DNA of 64,000 bases from NCBI GenBank assembly GCA_937916515.1, contig CALFSX010000171.1, positions 1 to 64,000 of the forward strand, written 5' to 3'. This DNA is from an uncultured Planctomycetaceae bacterium (lineage in GTDB: Bacteria > Planctomycetota > Planctomycetia > Planctomycetales > Planctomycetaceae). A model generated the notes under the pieces. The model did no database searches. It was not told the DNA's origin and saw only the letters and a program-made list of their open reading frames with translations. Positions 51,026 through 57,350 of the stretch are shown piece after piece. How positions within the stretch are numbered: position 1 is the first letter of the stretch; every line of letters starts with the position of its first letter. Both the position numbers and the translations under genes were made by a program.

Positions 51026-51592
51026 ATGCCGAATTGGAGACGAGCCGTTGTTCCTGGTGGAACCTTCTTCTTTACCGTTGTGACCGACCAACGTCGGCCA
51101 GTCTTCACAACGCCGAACGCGCGAACGATTCTGGGCAATGTGATTCGAGAATGCCAACAAACACATCCATTTGAGATTCGTGCTCTCGTGTTGCTACCAG
51201 ATCATCTCCACGCCATCTGGTGCATGCCATCTGGAGATGCCAACTACTCTGGCCGATGGCAGTGGATCAAGACGCAGTTTACTCAGCGGTGGCTTGCTGC
51301 CGGTGGCACCGAATGTGCTGTCACCGATGGGAGGAAGAACGATGGCCGCCGTGGAGTTTGGCAACCGAAGTTCTGGGAACACACCATCGAAGAGGAAGAC
51401 GACTTCCAGAACCACTTTGATTACATCCATTACAATCCAGTAAAACATGGCTACGTCCACTGCCCGACTGATTGGCCATGGTCGAGCTTTCATCGTTGGG
51501 TTGAAGCCGGTGTGTATCCCGAGCGTTGGGCGTGTGGAGATCGAGATGAAGTTCCTTGTTTCGATCGAATCAAAAATACGGTTGGTGAGTAG
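51026..51592 (+). CDS. REP-associated tyrosine transposase (RAYT, Y1_Tnp)
   Basis: A 188-residue HUH single-strand nuclease of the IS200/IS605-like RAYT group. The two metal-binding His are His60 and His62 in PDHLHAIW, and the catalytic Tyr is probably Tyr133 in FDYIHYNPVKHG. RAYTs cut and join REP hairpins and are thought to spread them. REPs of one family lie 84 bp upstream (50921) and 41 bp downstream (51633) in opposite orientation, the usual RAYT setting. It is full length and intact by motif. It is transcribed like its neighbours and is likely a resident, domesticated gene. Confidence 0.93.
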   Translation: MPNWRRAVVPGGTFFFTVVTDQRRPVFTTPNARTILGNVIRECQQTHPFEIRALVLLPDHLHAIWCMPSGDANYSGRWQWIKTQFTQRWLAAGGTECAVTDGRKNDGRRGVWQPKFWEHTIEEEDDFQNHFDYIHYNPVKHGYVHCPTDWPWSSFHRWVEAGVYPERWACGDRDEVPCFDRIKNTVGE

Positions 51593-51711: not shown

Positions 51712-53001
51712 ATGACAAACTTAACCAATTTCAATCGTCGTCGATTCGTGATTCGCACTCTTGCCGGATCGTTTGCTCTGCCTGGACTTCCGTCTTTGAT
51801 GGGGAAGTCGTTTGGGCGTGATTCGGCCATTCAACAGGCTCGCGGAGCTGGCGCGGGGGCTCGTCGCTTTGTGGCCGTCGGGAATTTGCTTGGCTTTCAG
51901 CAGAAGCATTTTTTTCCGGAAACCACCGGCAGCGAATTCGAACAAACGACCCTGCTGAAGCCGCTTGAGGCAAATCGTGATCAGATCACCGTCTACCGAG
52001 GACTCGATCACGGACTGCGCGGTGGACACTTTGCCGTGCATACGTTCCTGTCGGGCGTGCTGCATCACGAATCGAAAAATCGCCGCGATGGCAATGTTAC
52101 CATTGACCAGTTCATCGCCGATGAAGTGGGCATTCAAACGCGGTTTCCTTCGCTGACTGTCGGCTCCGAAGGCGGCATTCACGGCGGTTGCCAGATGTCG
52201 TGGACAAGGTCGGGTGTGCGAGTTCCGCCGATTACTGGCCCGGCCGAATTGTTCAGCAAGTTGTTTGTGACGGAATCGAAGGAACGCCTGGCTCAGCAGG
52301 TTAAAGAAAATTCGCTGCAGGCTTCGATTCTGGATTCTATTCGAGAAGAAGCGGGATCGCTTTCCAAACGCGTCAACCAGGAAGACAAGACCAAACTGGA
52401 CGAATACTTCAGTTCAATCCGCGACGTTGAAAAACGGCTCGAAGGTCGTCGGCAGTGGTCTGATCAGCCCAAGCCGAAAGCGCCGTTTGAACAACCGGCC
52501 GACACCAACACGGTTGACGATCTTCCGATGCTGTACGAACTGATCGCGCTGGCGTTGCAAACCGATTCGACTCGAGTGGCGACTCTGGAAATCGGCGGCA
52601 GCTTTTTGCCTCAGAATCTGGGAATCGATAAGTCTTACCACAGCCTTTCGCATCACGGCAACGATGAAGAAGCAGTCGCGAATTTGATTACCCTGGAAAC
52701 TTATCAGCTGGAACAATTCGGTAAATTTCTGACTCGGCTTGCTGGTATGCAGGATGGCGAACACAGCTTGCTGGATTCCACGGCGGTGTTGTTCGGCAGC
52801 GGTATGGGCAACGGCAGTTCGCACACTAACAGCGACCTGCCCATCGTTCTGGCCGGTGGTGGTTACGGCAAGGGGCAGTTCAAGAAGGTTGCTTCCGACG
52901 GTGTCGGCAAGGTTCCGCTATGCAATCTGTTTGTCGATATCGCTCAGCGCATGGGCATCGAGAAAGAATCGTTCGGAACCAGCACTGGCACCTTTTCGTA
53001 A
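51712..53001 (+). CDS. DUF1552 domain protein (Tat-exported)
   Basis: A 429-residue protein of DUF1552, found in planctomycetes and relatives as partner of the DUF1592 cytochrome. A twin-arginine signal (RRRFVIRTLAGSFALPGLPS) directs export. Family features include NLLGFQQKHFFPE, HFAVHTFLSGV, IDQFIADEVG, the long helix RVNQEDKTKLDEYFSSIRDVEKRLE, and GSGMGNGSSHTNSDLPIVLAGGGYG, which resembles alkaline-phosphatase or DUF1501-type active-site loops. Enzymatic activity is unproven. It is the likely first gene of a pair with the DUF1592 protein downstream, although repeats PR2 and PR1 lie between them (about 250 bp). Confidence 0.9.
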   Translation: MTNLTNFNRRRFVIRTLAGSFALPGLPSLMGKSFGRDSAIQQARGAGAGARRFVAVGNLLGFQQKHFFPETTGSEFEQTTLLKPLEANRDQITVYRGLDHGLRGGHFAVHTFLSGVLHHESKNRRDGNVTIDQFIADEVGIQTRFPSLTVGSEGGIHGGCQMSWTRSGVRVPPITGPAELFSKLFVTESKERLAQQVKENSLQASILDSIREEAGSLSKRVNQEDKTKLDEYFSSIRDVEKRLEGRRQWSDQPKPKAPFEQPADTNTVDDLPMLYELIALALQTDSTRVATLEIGGSFLPQNLGIDKSYHSLSHHGNDEEAVANLITLETYQLEQFGKFLTRLAGMQDGEHSLLDSTAVLFGSGMGNGSSHTNSDLPIVLAGGGYGKGQFKKVASDGVGKVPLCNLFVDIAQRMGIEKESFGTSTGTFS

Positions 53002-53050
53002 ACCCGATCGTCATGCACGCATCTAGCTGGAGAGCGCCAAATCGCAATCT

Positions 53051-53114
53051 GCCGCCGGGCGTTAGCCCCGGTTTTTACGGGTCATTTGGAGGAACCGGGG
53101 CTAACGCCCTGCGG
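53051..53114. repeat. PR2 palindromic repeat, copy 2
   Basis: Arms GCCGCCGGGCGTTAGCCCCG... (53051-53073) and ...GGGCTAACGCCCTGCGGC (53092-53114), about 23 bp each with an 18-nt loop. Same family as 22571-22633. It lies between the DUF1552 and DUF1592 genes. Confidence 0.88.
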
Positions 53115-53165
53115 CTCATGAAGACAACAAATCGGCAGCAGTTTTGTTCAACCGGGCGCTGTTCA

Positions 53166-53302
53166 GTTAGCGTCTTACTAAAAATGATGTGCACATGTTG
53201 CGCGCATGTTGGTCGTCGCGACAACGGAGCGGCTCGGCGGTTCGAACGTCCCATGCTATTCCGCCTGCCACGCCACTGGGTCAAGGGCGGAGCCCTTGTT
53301 GT
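53166..53302 (+). repeat. PR1 dispersed repeat, copy D (runs into the DUF1592 gene)
   Basis: Contains GTCTTACTAAAAA, GATGTGCACATG, GCGACAACGGAGCGGCTCGG, GTCCCATG, GCCACGCCACTGGGTCAAGG and the tail GGGC-GGA-GCCC. Its last 50 bp (53253-53302) are in frame with the DUF1592 protein and include the apparent start codon. Confidence 0.85.
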
Positions 53303-55769
53303 CGCGTTTGCGGCTTGCCTGCTCGCCGGCCGCATGCCTGTCGTGGCTGACGACGGTGCGAAACCGAACACGGTGGCGATTGACTTCATTGGAAAGTACT
53401 GCATCCAGTGCCATGAGGGTGATACGGCCGAAGGCGAGCGAGCGTTTGATTCGTTTGTTCTGCCTTTGAAGTCCGTGCAGCAGTTGATCGCGGCTGACGA
53501 AATCATCGACCAGGTGACGCTGAAGTCGATGCCTCCCCAAGATGCCGATCAACCGACTGACGACGAACGTGTTGCCGTGGTGACCGAATTGCGTGAGCAT
53601 ATTCAGCAGGCTCGTGATAAGGTGAAAAGCACGGGCGGCCGCACTGTGATGCGACGGCTTTCCAACCGTGAATATGAAGTGACTCTGGCGGCGTTGTTTG
53701 ATCGCCGAGTCGACACGTTGGGGCTGACGGCCGATTTTCCGAAAGACAACACCAGTGAGCACGTTGACACGATTGGTGAATCGTTGGTGACGTCCGGCTT
53801 TCTGCTGGATCAGTACTTTCAAGCCGCTTCTCGCTTGGTAGAAGCTCGACTGGGCAAGCCGGCCACAAAGCCGGAATCGTGGCACTTCACTGACAATTTT
53901 CGTCAGTACGAAGAATTGACGAACTCGCACCAAAGCGTGTTCAAATTCAAGTTTCTGTGCCTGTATGAGCAGCCAAATACGGATACGCGTCAGGGCGGTT
54001 ACGGGCACATTGAAGATTTTCTTGGCGGCGTGCCGGTGTCCGGGCTTTACGATATTGAAGTGAATGCTCAGGCCATGCACCGCGATACTCACTACGATCC
54101 GAAGATCTTTCGCATCGATTTTTCTGAACCGTTTCAGATTGGTGTCGTACCGGGCGACGTGACAAAAGGCCACATTCATTATCCACAAGCGATTGAACCG
54201 GTTCTGGCAACCGCCATCGTGCCCGACGATCAGCCCGAATGGTTAACCTTTCGAGTTTGGCTGGAAGCTGGTCAGACACCGCGGTTCATTTTCCCTAACG
54301 GCCCGTACGAATCACGGGCGTCGGTGATCGAAACGAACAAACGTTACAAAGATGAATTCAAGAAGCCACAGGATGGTGTCAGCCGCACGACTCTGCTTCG
54401 CGAAGGCAAGTTGCCTCATATCAGAATCGGCGAAATCAAGGTTCACGGTCCCATCGAAGAAGTGGGCGGAGGCAACGAAGAACTGGCCGTGTTTGGCAGC
54501 GCAGGGTTTCAGCCGGATTCAGCATTGGAGCAACTGTATGCGTTCGGTCAGAAAGCTTACCGACGTCCGCTGGATGAATCTGATCGCAAACGGATCGAAA
54601 CCATTTACCAGAAACGCCTGGCCGAAGAAGCCACGCCACGGCAGGCAGCTTTGGACGCGTTGAAGATGATTCTGTGCTCGCCTTCGTTTCTGTACCTCAG
54701 CGAAATCACGCCGGAAGACGAACGAGCCCTCCGGCCGTTCGATCTTGCATCCCGACTTTCGTACGCTCTGTGGGCCGCGCCGCCTGACGACGCGTTGTTC
54801 GCGGCAGCTGAATCGGGCCGGTTGACTGAGTCTGCGGAATTGACGACGCAGATTCAACGTATGCTTAGCGATGATCGGTCGTATGAATTTGTGAACGGGT
54901 TTCTGGACAGCTGGCTGAACCTGCGAGACATCGGCAACCTGCCTCCGCCTCGCAAAGCGGCTTGGGAGTATTATTCAGAGAACCTGCCGGAGTCGATGAA
55001 GCAGGAAGCTCGTTTGTTCTTCACGAATCTGCTTCAGGAAAACGGCCCGGTGACAGACTTCATCGACGCCGACTACGCGTTTGTCGACAAACGCCTGGCG
55101 AAGCTTTACCAGTTGCCCGAACGCGACACTTTGCGTCTTGCGGATGGTTTCCAACGTGTGAGCGTGGCCGAGAGCAAGCAACGCGGCGGTGTGCTGGGGA
55201 TGGCCGGCGTGTTGACCGTCAGTGCGAATGGAGTTGACACATCACCGGTCACTCGAGGTGTCTGGGTTTCAGAAAACATTCTCGGCGTCACGCCTCCCCC
55301 GCCACCCGACGTAGTGCCCGCTCTGGATTCCGATGTCAGCGGAGCCACCACGATTCGTGAAAAGCTGGCGAAACACAGCGCCGACAAAACCTGCGTGGTG
55401 TGCCATCGCAACATCGACCCGCTCGGCTTTGCCCTCGAAACCTTCGACCCCATCGGACGCTGGCGAACAAAATATCCCAAGTCCAATAGTAAGTCAGAAG
55501 CGGCCAGGATTGATCCATCAGGAGAATTCCCTTCCGGCGAAACCTACGCAGACTTTGAAAGCTTCAAACAAGTTCTCGCCAAAGATCGCCGTGACGGGTT
55601 CGCTCGCAACCTGATCGAAAAGCTGCTGACCTATTCAACCGGGCGTCACATGGAGCGCGGCGATCGATACGAGATCGACGACATTCTTGCTCGCGTCAAA
55701 GCCGATAACTTCGGTCTGCGAACCATGGTGGTTGAGGTTTTAACCAGCGAGATCTTTCGTTCGCGGTAG
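53253..55769 (+). CDS. DUF1592/DUF1588/DUF1585 cytochrome-like protein
   Basis: An 838-residue envelope protein of the DUF1587-DUF1592-DUF1588-DUF1585 architecture. A haem motif CIQCH lies near residue 50 in a PSCyt1-like segment, with RRLSNREYEVTLAALF (DUF1587) after it. The C-terminal half has DLASRLSYALWAAPPD (DUF1592), then GVLTVSANGVDTSPVTRGVWV with CVVCHRNIDPLGFALE, a second CxxCH (DUF1588/1585). The partner is the DUF1552 gene. Start: the frame is open to 52920, but upstream sequence is repeat. ATG 53253 gives MLFRLPRHWVKGGALV plus a good hydrophobic core ending VVADD, and these first residues are encoded by repeat copy D. No clear ribosome site precedes this ATG. Confidence 0.88.
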   Translation: MLFRLPRHWVKGGALVVAFAACLLAGRMPVVADDGAKPNTVAIDFIGKYCIQCHEGDTAEGERAFDSFVLPLKSVQQLIAADEIIDQVTLKSMPPQDADQPTDDERVAVVTELREHIQQARDKVKSTGGRTVMRRLSNREYEVTLAALFDRRVDTLGLTADFPKDNTSEHVDTIGESLVTSGFLLDQYFQAASRLVEARLGKPATKPESWHFTDNFRQYEELTNSHQSVFKFKFLCLYEQPNTDTRQGGYGHIEDFLGGVPVSGLYDIEVNAQAMHRDTHYDPKIFRIDFSEPFQIGVVPGDVTKGHIHYPQAIEPVLATAIVPDDQPEWLTFRVWLEAGQTPRFIFPNGPYESRASVIETNKRYKDEFKKPQDGVSRTTLLREGKLPHIRIGEIKVHGPIEEVGGGNEELAVFGSAGFQPDSALEQLYAFGQKAYRRPLDESDRKRIETIYQKRLAEEATPRQAALDALKMILCSPSFLYLSEITPEDERALRPFDLASRLSYALWAAPPDDALFAAAESGRLTESAELTTQIQRMLSDDRSYEFVNGFLDSWLNLRDIGNLPPPRKAAWEYYSENLPESMKQEARLFFTNLLQENGPVTDFIDADYAFVDKRLAKLYQLPERDTLRLADGFQRVSVAESKQRGGVLGMAGVLTVSANGVDTSPVTRGVWVSENILGVTPPPPPDVVPALDSDVSGATTIREKLAKHSADKTCVVCHRNIDPLGFALETFDPIGRWRTKYPKSNSKSEAARIDPSGEFPSGETYADFESFKQVLAKDRRDGFARNLIEKLLTYSTGRHMERGDRYEIDDILARVKADNFGLRTMVVEVLTSEIFRSR
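55734..55769 (+). repeat. Gene-end repeat, copy 1 (3' end of the DUF1592 gene)
   Basis: The final 36 nt of the DUF1592 gene (coding EVLTSEIFRSR and stop) recur at 56612-56647 with two mismatches. The last 25 nt, from CAGCGAGATC to the TAG, are identical. Confidence 0.92.
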
Positions 55770-55776
55770 TTCCAAG

Positions 55777-55860
55777 CCACAGATGAAACACAGATTTTCA
55801 CAGATAGGCTCAAGCATTGAACCTCGCAACATCTGTGCAAATCTGTGTTTCATCCGTGGC
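55777..55860. repeat. CACAGAT-type palindromic repeat, unit 1
   Basis: GCCACAGATGAAACACAGAT and following bases (55777-55806) are inverted at 55831-55860 (ATCTGTG...ATCTGTGTTTCATCCGTGGC), arms of about 30 bp with a 24-nt loop. It begins 7 nt after the DUF1592 stop codon. Confidence 0.9.
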
Positions 55861-55890
55861 TTAGAAATAACAAGTCAGATACGGCTCTGC

Positions 55891-56259
55891 TCAAAGCACC
55901 ATCCGTTTGAACTCAACTTTTTCACGGCCAAAATTGATCAGCAGCCCAAACTTAATTCCGGTTGCCTTCAGTTCGTTCAATAATTGTGCTTCGTCCGCAG
56001 CCTGGTATGTCTTTGCGATTTTCAGTTCAGCGATTACCAGCTCTTCCACGAACAGATCCGCGAAATATTCTCCTACCAGGATGTTCTTGTAACGTACTTT
56101 GATTTGCGCCTCCGTTTCGCACCCGTGGCCCCTTTGAATCAGTTCTGCCTGCATCGCTTTCCGATAGACCTTCTCAAGAAATCCGTACCCAAGGACGTTG
56201 TGAACCTCGAACGCAGCTCCAATGATCGCTTCCGTAATTTCTTTGTGCTCAAACGACAA
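55891..56259 (-). CDS. GxxExxY protein (PD-(D/E)XK nuclease-like)
   Basis: A 122-residue protein of the GxxExxY family (Pfam PDDEXK_3), widespread but of unknown role. The name motif GFLEKVY is at 26-32. The nuclease-like active site is visible as Asp68 (in YFADLF) and Glu78-Leu-Lys80 (ELK), with Lys also close in KIAKTYQ. Start: TTG 56259 has GGAGG 4 nt before it and gives the usual family N-terminus SFEHKEITEAIIGA. The longer frame from 56325 would translate part of a CACAGAT repeat and is rejected. The gene lies between palindromic repeats and between two copies of a DUF1592 3' end, which suggests a mobile or repeat-linked unit. Confidence 0.88.
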   Translation of the reverse strand: MSFEHKEITEAIIGAAFEVHNVLGYGFLEKVYRKAMQAELIQRGHGCETEAQIKVRYKNILVGEYFADLFVEELVIAELKIAKTYQAADEAQLLNELKATGIKFGLLINFGREKVEFKRMVL

Positions 56260-56278
56260 GGTTCCTCCATCATTTATC

Positions 56279-56308
56279 GCCACAGATAAAACACAGATTT
56301 TCACAGAT
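56279..56308 (+). repeat. CACAGAT-type repeat, single arm
   Basis: GCCACAGATAAAACACAGAT and following bases match the left arm of the palindrome at 55777 at nearly every position. No inverted partner follows directly. It lies just upstream of the GxxExxY start. Confidence 0.88.
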
Positions 56309-56525
56309 GCTGCACTCTCCCGCAATCAGTTTACCCTGAACTACTGACGCCGCTCGATGAAGTGCTCAACCAAGCGGCCGAATCAACTCGCCGCCCGTAC
56401 AAGTATCGGTCGTATTGAACGCTGCTTCTGTGGTGTAATCGAGATCTGCGAAGACTCTGATTTGCATAACCGATTAGCTCGTCGCCTGCGCGCGGCATCA
56501 AGTAGAGCGACAGAGAAAAGTTCTT

Positions 56526-56590
56526 AGCCACAGATGGAACACAGATAGGCCCAATCATTGATCCGCGTCACATCTGTGTTTCATCTGTGG
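56526..56590. repeat. CACAGAT-type palindromic repeat, unit 2
   Basis: GCCACAGATGGAACACAGAT (from 56524) is inverted as ATCTGTGTTTCATCTGTGGC (to 56590). It is shorter than unit 1, and a gene-end remnant follows at 56606. Confidence 0.88.
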
Positions 56591-56605
56591 CAGAAGAATT
56601 CACCG

Positions 56606-56647
56606 GTCGTCGAGGCTTTAAGCAGCGAGATCTTTCGTTCGCGGTAG
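56606..56647 (+). pseudogene. Remnant of a DUF1592 gene 3' end
   Basis: Codes VVEALSSEIFRSR and stop, against VVEVLTSEIFRSR at the end of the intact DUF1592 gene. The DNA matches 34 of 36 nt, with further synonymous differences upstream (GTCGTC for GTGGTT), so it may derive from a paralogue or an old duplication. It starts within 16 nt of the palindrome end at 56590. Confidence 0.75.
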
Positions 56648-56849
56648 ACGAAGCACCAAAGCCGCCGTTGCCTCGAACGACAAGATTCAATACTCGTCGC
56701 TTAAAGCTACACCCAAATGCGACCTATAGAAGTCGGTCGCTGGGTTCTGGATCTGGATGTTTCCGTCTCGATGGCTCGAAACATTATTGTGTCTCCATGT
56801 ACAATGTTCAGATCGGCCCCGATTCATTTACATAACTGGAGTGATAGTC

Positions 56850-57350
56850 GTGAAAAGCAGTGGTTTGGTGCTTCAAATTGTGTGTTTCGGAGTTTGGCTT
56901 TGTGGAGTTTTATTCTTGAACGGAATTGTCGAAGCTGAGGACCATCCTGCATTTCAACCGGTGAAAGAACTGTTTGCCGCAATGTCCAAACACGATGGCA
57001 AGGCGATGCAGGAGACTTCAACAGAGGACTTCCAATTACTCGAACATGGCGAAGACTGGACGATGCAGCAGCTCGTGGACGCCGTTCAGCCCAAGGGCCA
57101 ACCGTATGAGCGCAAGAACTTCTTCAGGCAGATTCGAGCTCGACACAAAGGCGACGTGGCCTGGGTGAGCTACTGGAATAAGGCAGAGATTCGTCGTGAC
57201 AGCGGGCTGCGGACCGTCGTTTGGCTCGAAAGTGCAGTGATGGTCAAAGAAGACGACCGCTGGAAAGTCCAACTGATGCATTCGACTCGTTTAGAACCAG
57301 ACAAATTTCCAAAGAATATTGAATGGGTTCAGTTTGAACCGACTCCATAA
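56850..57350 (+). CDS. Secreted NTF2-like (DUF4440/SnoaL-type) protein
   Basis: A 166-residue protein with a signal or anchor segment (about 6-26, LVLQIVCFGVWLCGVLFL) and a single NTF2-like cone fold: PVKELFAAMSKHDGKAMQETSTEDFQLLEHG, then a strand pair RTVVWLESAVMVKEDDRWKVQLMHSTRL. Such domains bind small molecules or serve as enzymes; no catalytic residue can be assigned. The frame is open to 56757; GTG 56850 is chosen because GGAG lies 8 nt upstream and it gives a normal signal peptide. GTG 56841 is an alternative. It is separate from the repeat region to the left. Confidence 0.72.
   Translation: MKSSGLVLQIVCFGVWLCGVLFLNGIVEAEDHPAFQPVKELFAAMSKHDGKAMQETSTEDFQLLEHGEDWTMQQLVDAVQPKGQPYERKNFFRQIRARHKGDVAWVSYWNKAEIRRDSGLRTVVWLESAVMVKEDDRWKVQLMHSTRLEPDKFPKNIEWVQFEPTP

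Follow-up and report, generated by a model that had tools for sequence, protein, structure and literature searches.

GxxExxY genes between inverted arrays of short words: a putative nuclease-repeat unit in bacteria and archaea

The window analysed here is a stretch of 64,000 nucleotides (nt) from an uncultured Planctomycetaceae bacterium (contig CALFSX010000171.1, positions 1 to 64,000), in which a minus-strand GxxExxY gene is enclosed by a DUF1592-type gene (52920-55769) on one side and by a small DUF4440 gene (56757-57350) on the other. An initial annotation, made from the sequence alone, had placed this gene between CACAGAT palindromes and between two copies of the DUF1592 gene end, and had proposed a system resembling that of repetitive extragenic palindromic sequences (REP) and REP-associated tyrosine transposases (RAYT). 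The palindromes and an additional single arm were located (Table 1), and the duplicated gene end proved to be longer than reported (39 of 43 nt identical, against 34 of 36), its final 25 nt being all identical. Inverted arrays of short words were also found around GxxExxY genes in many other genomes, and gene and arrays are treated below as a putative unit.

Table 1. Features of the GxxExxY locus (positions in the window; P1 and P2 are the two complete palindromes).
Feature	Position	Strand	Remarks
DUF1592-type gene 3' end, copy 1 of duplicated gene end	55727..55769	+	39/43 identical to 56605-56647
P1, complete CACAGAT palindrome	55767..55869	.	39-nt arms, 90% complementary, 25-nt loop; inner arms 55776-55805 / 55831-55860
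GxxExxY gene (PF13366/TIGR04256), predicted minimal PD-(D/E)XK nuclease, 122 amino acids	55891..56259	-	TTG start with GGAGG
Single CACAGAT array arm, directly upstream of nuclease start	56279..56308	+	29/30 identical to P1 left arm
Stretch between single arm and P2, 218 nt	56309..56526	.	no second whole copy among own-genome matches
P2, second complete CACAGAT palindrome	56527..56591	.	arms 56527-56546 / 56572-56591, 95% complementary
DUF1592 gene end copy 2, remnant	56605..56647	+	39/43 identical to copy 1

The protein encoded in the window matched PF13366 (Pfam; E 6.9e-36, 123.6 bits vs. a curated cut-off of 22) and TIGR04256 (NCBIfam; E 2.4e-37, 127.8 bits vs. a curated cut-off of 35); these were its sole Pfam and NCBIfam matches at E <= 0.001, and no Y1 (HUH) transposase domain was among them. 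In an alignment of 97 proteins D68 was invariant, and E29, E78, K80 and Q92 were each present in at least 90%; Asp68 and E78-L-K80, the residues for which the gene had originally been called PD-(D/E)XK-like, were conserved in the window protein. We take E29, D68, E78-x-K80 and Q92 to be the PD-(D/E)XK catalytic set; a QxxxY motif is known from RecB/Cas4 nucleases. An AlphaFold2 model built with the window protein and 97 relatives reached a predicted local distance difference test (pLDDT) value of 95.5. Its closest solved fold was SSO0001 (4ic1, Z 9.9), presumably a Cas4 protein, followed by restriction-type domains and archaeal Hjc (Z 7.7), though a structural Z below 8 may reflect merely a common arrangement and fold does not imply function. 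A sequence search of the PDB with the window protein gave no match at E <= 1; the Cas4b profile of PADLOC matched it at E 0.0016 and left the protein of locus L010 unmatched. The window protein is a clear member of the GxxExxY / PDDEXK_3 family and a predicted minimal PD-(D/E)XK nuclease.

The window contained 24 copies of CACAGAT where 8.6 were expected, with 0 of 100 shuffles as high, and 12 of the 24 copies fell in 55778-56589 (about 0.8 kb). The genome to which the window belongs holds three GxxExxY genes, each of them (by eye) between inverted short-word arrays: CACAGAT in the window, CGCAGAG on contig C78 (L001) and CACGAAT on contig C306 (L003). The L001 arrays were degenerate, with an inverted-match score of only 11, and L003 is a broken copy. 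Three different words in one genome mean that the link is to the form of the array, not to CACAGAT, and the proposal of CACAGAT as the repeat word of GxxExxY loci failed: an exact CACAGAT triple was found in only 1 of 118 genomes of the class, and the word differs with the nuclease. The general form consists of about three copies of a 7-letter word, inverted across the gene and described by the degenerate heptamer CRCNNAN, with start-to-start spacings of 8 (172 cases), 9 (143), 10 (60) or 11 (23), others being rare; the outer end of an arm is often TTMAC, then CRC.

Matches to PF13366 were present in 65 of the 118 class genomes, and 91 loci out of 145 matches were studied, mostly the best-scoring, lower-scoring matches and fragments being left out. 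The best ungapped inverted match between the 220 nt upstream and the 220 nt downstream of the domain was used as the measure, a score of at least 14 counting as a pass. Sixty-four of the 91 GxxExxY loci passed, compared with 0 of 129 other open reading frames (ORFs of at least 250 amino acids, from the 55 loci of at least 5 kb) and 18 of 452 pairings of flanks from different loci; the arms are thus alike at any one locus but not from one locus to another. PIN-domain genes, the small-gene control, gave 0/30, with a CRCRRAK pair in the flanks of 1 of the 30 loci; their mispaired control was high (27/284), probably because orthologous loci were not oriented alike. RAYT genes, the positive control, gave 23/30 by the same measure.

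The enrichment within 500 bp of the gene that had been anticipated was evident: array pairs (94 GxxExxY loci) reached 1.05 per locus upstream and 1.30 downstream in the first 150 nt, and were down to about 0.02 in each 150 nt at distances of more than 600 nt. An array pair was present upstream in 103 of 171 loci, downstream in 107 and on both sides in 86. Arrays lying directly at the gene on both sides, with a regular spacing (mostly 8-9 nt) that could suit a bound oligomer, might also be operators or RNA hairpins serving self-control or transcript processing, dispersed palindromes being by-products or binding sites. This regulatory role was judged quite unlikely, given that the two sides are used about equally, that thousands of arrays lie away from GxxExxY genes and that the bracketed unit as a whole is found again at other sites (the last two points are described below).

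The pattern was not confined to the class. A collection-wide scan with ten proteins of nuclease subfamily A matched at least 586 loci, of which the best 80 were taken. These came, by record titles, from many bacterial phyla plus archaea; four were dropped for a contig end near the gene. Fifty-three of the 76 usable loci scored at least 14 and 34 at least 20, against 0/103 for other ORFs (at least 200 amino acids) and 32/377 for mispaired flanks. Two of the three archaeal loci passed (L199, Methanothrix; L224, Methanosarcinales; L187 failed). Four of the eight plasmid records with a match were examined: the loci of Bernardetia, Bacteroides finegoldii (L350) and Sphingomonas parapaucimobilis scored 18 to 22.5, the Fusobacteria record scored 0, and in none of the four did the annotated GxxExxY start run through the array. 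In the S. parapaucimobilis record (L351, NZ_CP155749.1) the GxxExxY unit, with TTCACGCGAAG arrays, lies between fabD and fabG. Phage records gave no GxxExxY match at E 1e-5. Palindromes are common in these genomes, and chance, or an abundance of intergenic palindromes everywhere, might be invoked for the association; with controls of 0/129, 0/103 and 0/30 and the sharp distance peak at the gene, the probability of such an explanation is negligible.

The array word followed the nuclease subfamily. Labels were available for 66 of the 91 class loci and 53 of the 76 cross-phylum loci, under a labelling rule that fixes C-R-C and the A at position 6 and leaves only the other word positions free to vary. 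Among the labelled class loci, 34 of the 35 with a subfamily-A nuclease (defined by a DG insertion at the C-terminus) had a word ending in G, and 28 of the 31 others had one ending in T or A (Fisher, 3.5e-14); the last letter was also G at 53/53 labelled cross-phylum loci, all found with a subfamily-A query, although six of them fail the C-terminal rule. On the protein tree, which is built from few alignment columns and leaves many forks unresolved, the last letter changed 9 times, compared with a mean of 25.6 and a minimum of 21 in 200 shuffles, and letter 2 within subfamily A changed 7 times, compared with 11.9 (0/200 shuffles as low). In 9 of the 10 genomes with both subfamilies labelled the word followed the nuclease (the exception was G100, locus L086), so that genome relatedness does not explain the match. 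Enzyme and array word co-vary.

The bracketed unit had a median length of 492 nt (117 loci). Loci L029 and L036 matched over the unit (556 nt, 78%) and not beyond, as did L062 and L068 of one genome (447 nt, 76%). In two genomes of one genus, L047 (G084) and L075 (G111) have about 529 nt in common at 86% identity; both L075 flanks match contig C206 of G084 and L047 sits at contig C151, and the two copies therefore occupy different sites, the upstream comparison of L047 resting on 0.3 kb, much of it array. In G084 the L075 site has both flanks in one contiguous stretch (identity 90-91% over 2.9 and 3.7 kb) but no unit; in place of the unit there are 159 nt of different sequence, and the array relic TTTTACGCAGAAACGCG is kept. 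This contrast is a presence/absence difference inside a genus, compatible with gain or loss: the unit has been gained, lost or moved. A comparison of L045 with G115 was unusable because of rearranged flanks. Two other repeats were encountered at these loci: one of about 160 nt (L075:7308-7470), with more than thirty matches in G084 among the matches listed, and a palindromic one of about 125 nt (L045:608-731), which matched several G115 places on both strands.

Flanking target duplication, raised by the initial annotation as a possible feature of such loci, was rejected as a general rule: direct repeats at the ends (score of at least 10) were found at 3 of 117 loci (2.6%) and in 10 of 1162 controls (0.9%), a slight excess only. 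In 7 of 9 pairs of related loci, the arms of one locus were on average more alike than arms compared across species, but in only 4 of the 9 did both within-locus identities exceed both across-species values. Since these pairs overlap, and since arms had been selected by mutual match, the values give only a hint that the two arms of a locus evolve in concert.

The arrays could also be the ends of an element moved by a RAYT or by an unknown transposase, the GxxExxY gene riding along. The window does contain a RAYT gene, 4 kb upstream (51026-51592; NF047646, E 1.4e-55), with no CACAGAT within 3 kb of it, and the number of arrays in a genome correlates with four-helix-bundle (4HB) genes as well as with GxxExxY genes. 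Such a passenger role is nevertheless very unlikely, as CRCRRAK array pairs were found at 0 of 30 RAYT loci (1.5 kb examined) and in the 220-nt flanks of 0 of 28 4HB loci (PF05635, L099-L128; two of 30 dropped for a contig end near the gene), the unit has room for little beyond the GxxExxY gene, and the word follows the GxxExxY subfamily. RAYT as the owner of the heptamer arrays was rejected on the first of these counts.

Arrays were also abundant away from GxxExxY genes. The 118 genomes held 2966 triple arrays, compared with 98 for reversed-pattern controls, and 83 genomes held at least one; the median per genome was 13 with GxxExxY (two per gene subtracted) and 1 without (p 1e-4), and array number correlated with GxxExxY (rho 0.48). 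Of 20 palindrome places read in two genomes, 18 were two-armed and two single-armed, but they were hand-picked among the places listed, mostly with arrays on both strands, and 18/20 is no rate. The loops at these places were mostly 30 to 170 nt long, too short for a GxxExxY gene. Nine palindromes of G086, a genome with no GxxExxY match, had arms 93-94% alike and loops 58% alike (shuffled loops, 44%), and some G034 palindromes carry nearly the array of unit L028 of the same genome (24 of 25 letters at L330). Eight genomes with at least 10 triple arrays were GxxExxY-free (G086, G109, G050, G065, G016, G085, G039 and G081), and their arrays are candidates for orphan repeats or repeats under another owner. 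In genome G000, two CACAGAT palindromes 225 nt apart on contig C138 (L006 1276-1600) have nearly the same loop and, by eye, represent a palindrome duplicated as a unit.

The window locus itself is a CACAGAT version of the unit. Its nuclease grouped on the protein tree with those of L062, L068, L083 and L092, whose arrays are CACGGAT, CACGGAA or CACAGAT, and CACAGAT arrays are therefore of the type expected there. The gene-adjacent arms point outward, an arrangement shared with 16 of 119 labelled loci but not with L062, L068, L083 and L092; for this reason the locus looks like a somewhat rearranged copy, perhaps two palindromes around the gene. A comparison of the interval with G073, of the same genus, gave no usable synteny match. 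The TTG at 56259, preceded by GGAGG, was judged by eye to be the likely nuclease start, which would leave the array upstream of the coding region; a longer ORF (55891-56325, start 56325) reads through the array. Annotated GxxExxY proteins often have repeat-encoded N-terminal extensions, and read-through of this kind is a possible source of them. Copy 2 of the DUF1592 end had no DNA match elsewhere in its own genome at E <= 1, a search that a diverged paralogue could escape, and no own-genome source was thus found for it. As target duplication is no general feature, the doubled end appears to be peculiar to this locus, either a trace left by insertion or a paralogue remnant.

The outward arms bear on a further explanation, homing, in which the palindromes would be those of the host or of another system and GxxExxY a parasite resembling a homing endonuclease gene, which copies itself into the loop of a palindrome already there, the two arms being those of one older palindrome. 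Short palindromes with such arrays, too small for the gene, do exist, an array relic persists at the gene-less L075 site of G084, and target duplication is hardly seen, all of which would fit. The word, however, follows the nuclease even among loci of one genome, so that host repeats would need to be chosen by subfamily, and at the 16 loci with outward arms the gene is outside the loop. Homing was considered unlikely.

The preferred reading is that GxxExxY gene and inverted arrays together constitute a cognate nuclease-repeat unit, about 0.5 kb long, the spread of which is probably driven by the nuclease. Most likely the enzyme would recognise its own version of the array, duplex DNA and a hairpin or cruciform being equally possible as the form recognised; a hairpin or cruciform is attractive because the arrays are stem-forming and the fold is common with junction resolvases. 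The nuclease would then cut at the array, and cell repair would copy or convert the sequence between arrays, so that the unit and the gene-less array palindromes would be spread and upheld and the arms kept alike. Repair copying or gene conversion would be favoured over cut-and-paste transposition with target duplication, because hardly any target duplication was found, arms are far more alike than loops and presence is scattered. A more specific version, which we put forward tentatively and at a little under an even chance, is that of a selfish unit, mobile or self-converting, the sole enzyme of which, a minimal PD-(D/E)XK nuclease, reads subfamily-specific heptamer arrays, keeps its arms alike and seeds thousands of gene-less palindromes in bacteria and archaea.

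Several observations weigh against the preferred reading. Twenty-seven of the 91 class loci and 23 of the 76 cross-phylum loci were below the threshold, itself chosen by the analysts, and two of the 117 passing loci (L057 and, among the 53 passing cross-phylum loci, L237) do not have true CRC arrays. G038 has arrays of the subfamily-A type yet only non-A nucleases. Array number correlated equally with the unrelated 4HB family (rho 0.53 vs. 0.48), and the reversed-pattern control also correlated with GxxExxY (rho 0.27, p 0.003), so that the genome-level abundance figure is unspecific; the eight array-rich genomes named above are 8 of the 53 without GxxExxY. The loops of the G086 palindromes are partly conserved, the L075 site in G084 is not a clean empty site and no such site was found, some copies are of older date (the same flanking genes accompany several loci of genus g3), and direct repeats at the ends are rare.

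GxxExxY is a widespread annotation. In the literature searched (outside which lay subscription papers and preprints) it was mentioned in two papers, in passing only, and TIGR04256 nowhere, no role was found for it, and nothing linked it to cognate repeats. Should the array be the substrate, an orphan nuclease family would gain a DNA target open to immediate bench testing, and an owner would be found for a large class of intergenic palindromes. The preferred reading, if true, would mean that the RAYT/REP design has been invented twice, in unrelated forms, and perhaps a third time in the 4HB genes, and repeat-bound single-gene units may therefore be a general form of selfish DNA.

Among known systems, Cas4 / RecB-type and Hjc nucleases have a fold in common with the window protein, without a sequence match in the PDB. 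Miniature inverted-repeat transposable elements and insertion sequences (IS) with terminal inverted repeats resemble the GxxExxY units in being short, with inverted ends and gene-less relatives; unlike them, GxxExxY units show hardly any target duplication, their ends vary between loci yet match each other within a locus, and the nine G086 palindromes differ far more in their loops than in their arms. The 4HB genes of PF05635 (23S rRNA intervening-sequence proteins) also lay between matched inverted arrays of short units (18 of 28 loci), with other words, an unrelated protein and a best period of 7 nt in 16 of the 18.

The closest likeness is to RAYT, REP and REPIN. RAYT genes are flanked by inverted REPs (PMC2817692), and in both systems a small DNA-cutting enzyme (a predicted one in the GxxExxY case) is encoded by a single gene with an inverted repeat on each side, the repeat varies together with the enzyme, and gene-less repeat copies are dispersed. 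Abundance tracks the gene in the RAYT case; here the medians of 13 and 1 stand beside an equal correlation with 4HB genes. The scarcity of target duplication has its parallel in the IS200/IS605 family, for which no large one is reported. The enzyme differs, being of the PD-(D/E)XK type where that of RAYT is HUH/Y1, and the repeats differ, being arrays of 7-mers mostly 8-9 nt apart where a REP is one imperfect palindrome. The qualifying RAYT cases of PMC2817692 come from gammaproteobacteria only, unlike the GxxExxY pattern with its many phyla and archaea. The REP/RAYT-like system of the initial annotation thus stands as regards inverted arrays that bracket the gene and co-vary with the enzyme, more widely than had been claimed, but without CACAGAT as its general word and without target duplication as a general feature. 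By this comparison the design appears to be that of RAYT/REP with an unrelated enzyme and unrelated repeats, and it has a fair chance of representing a new kind of system if nuclease-driven spread is shown.

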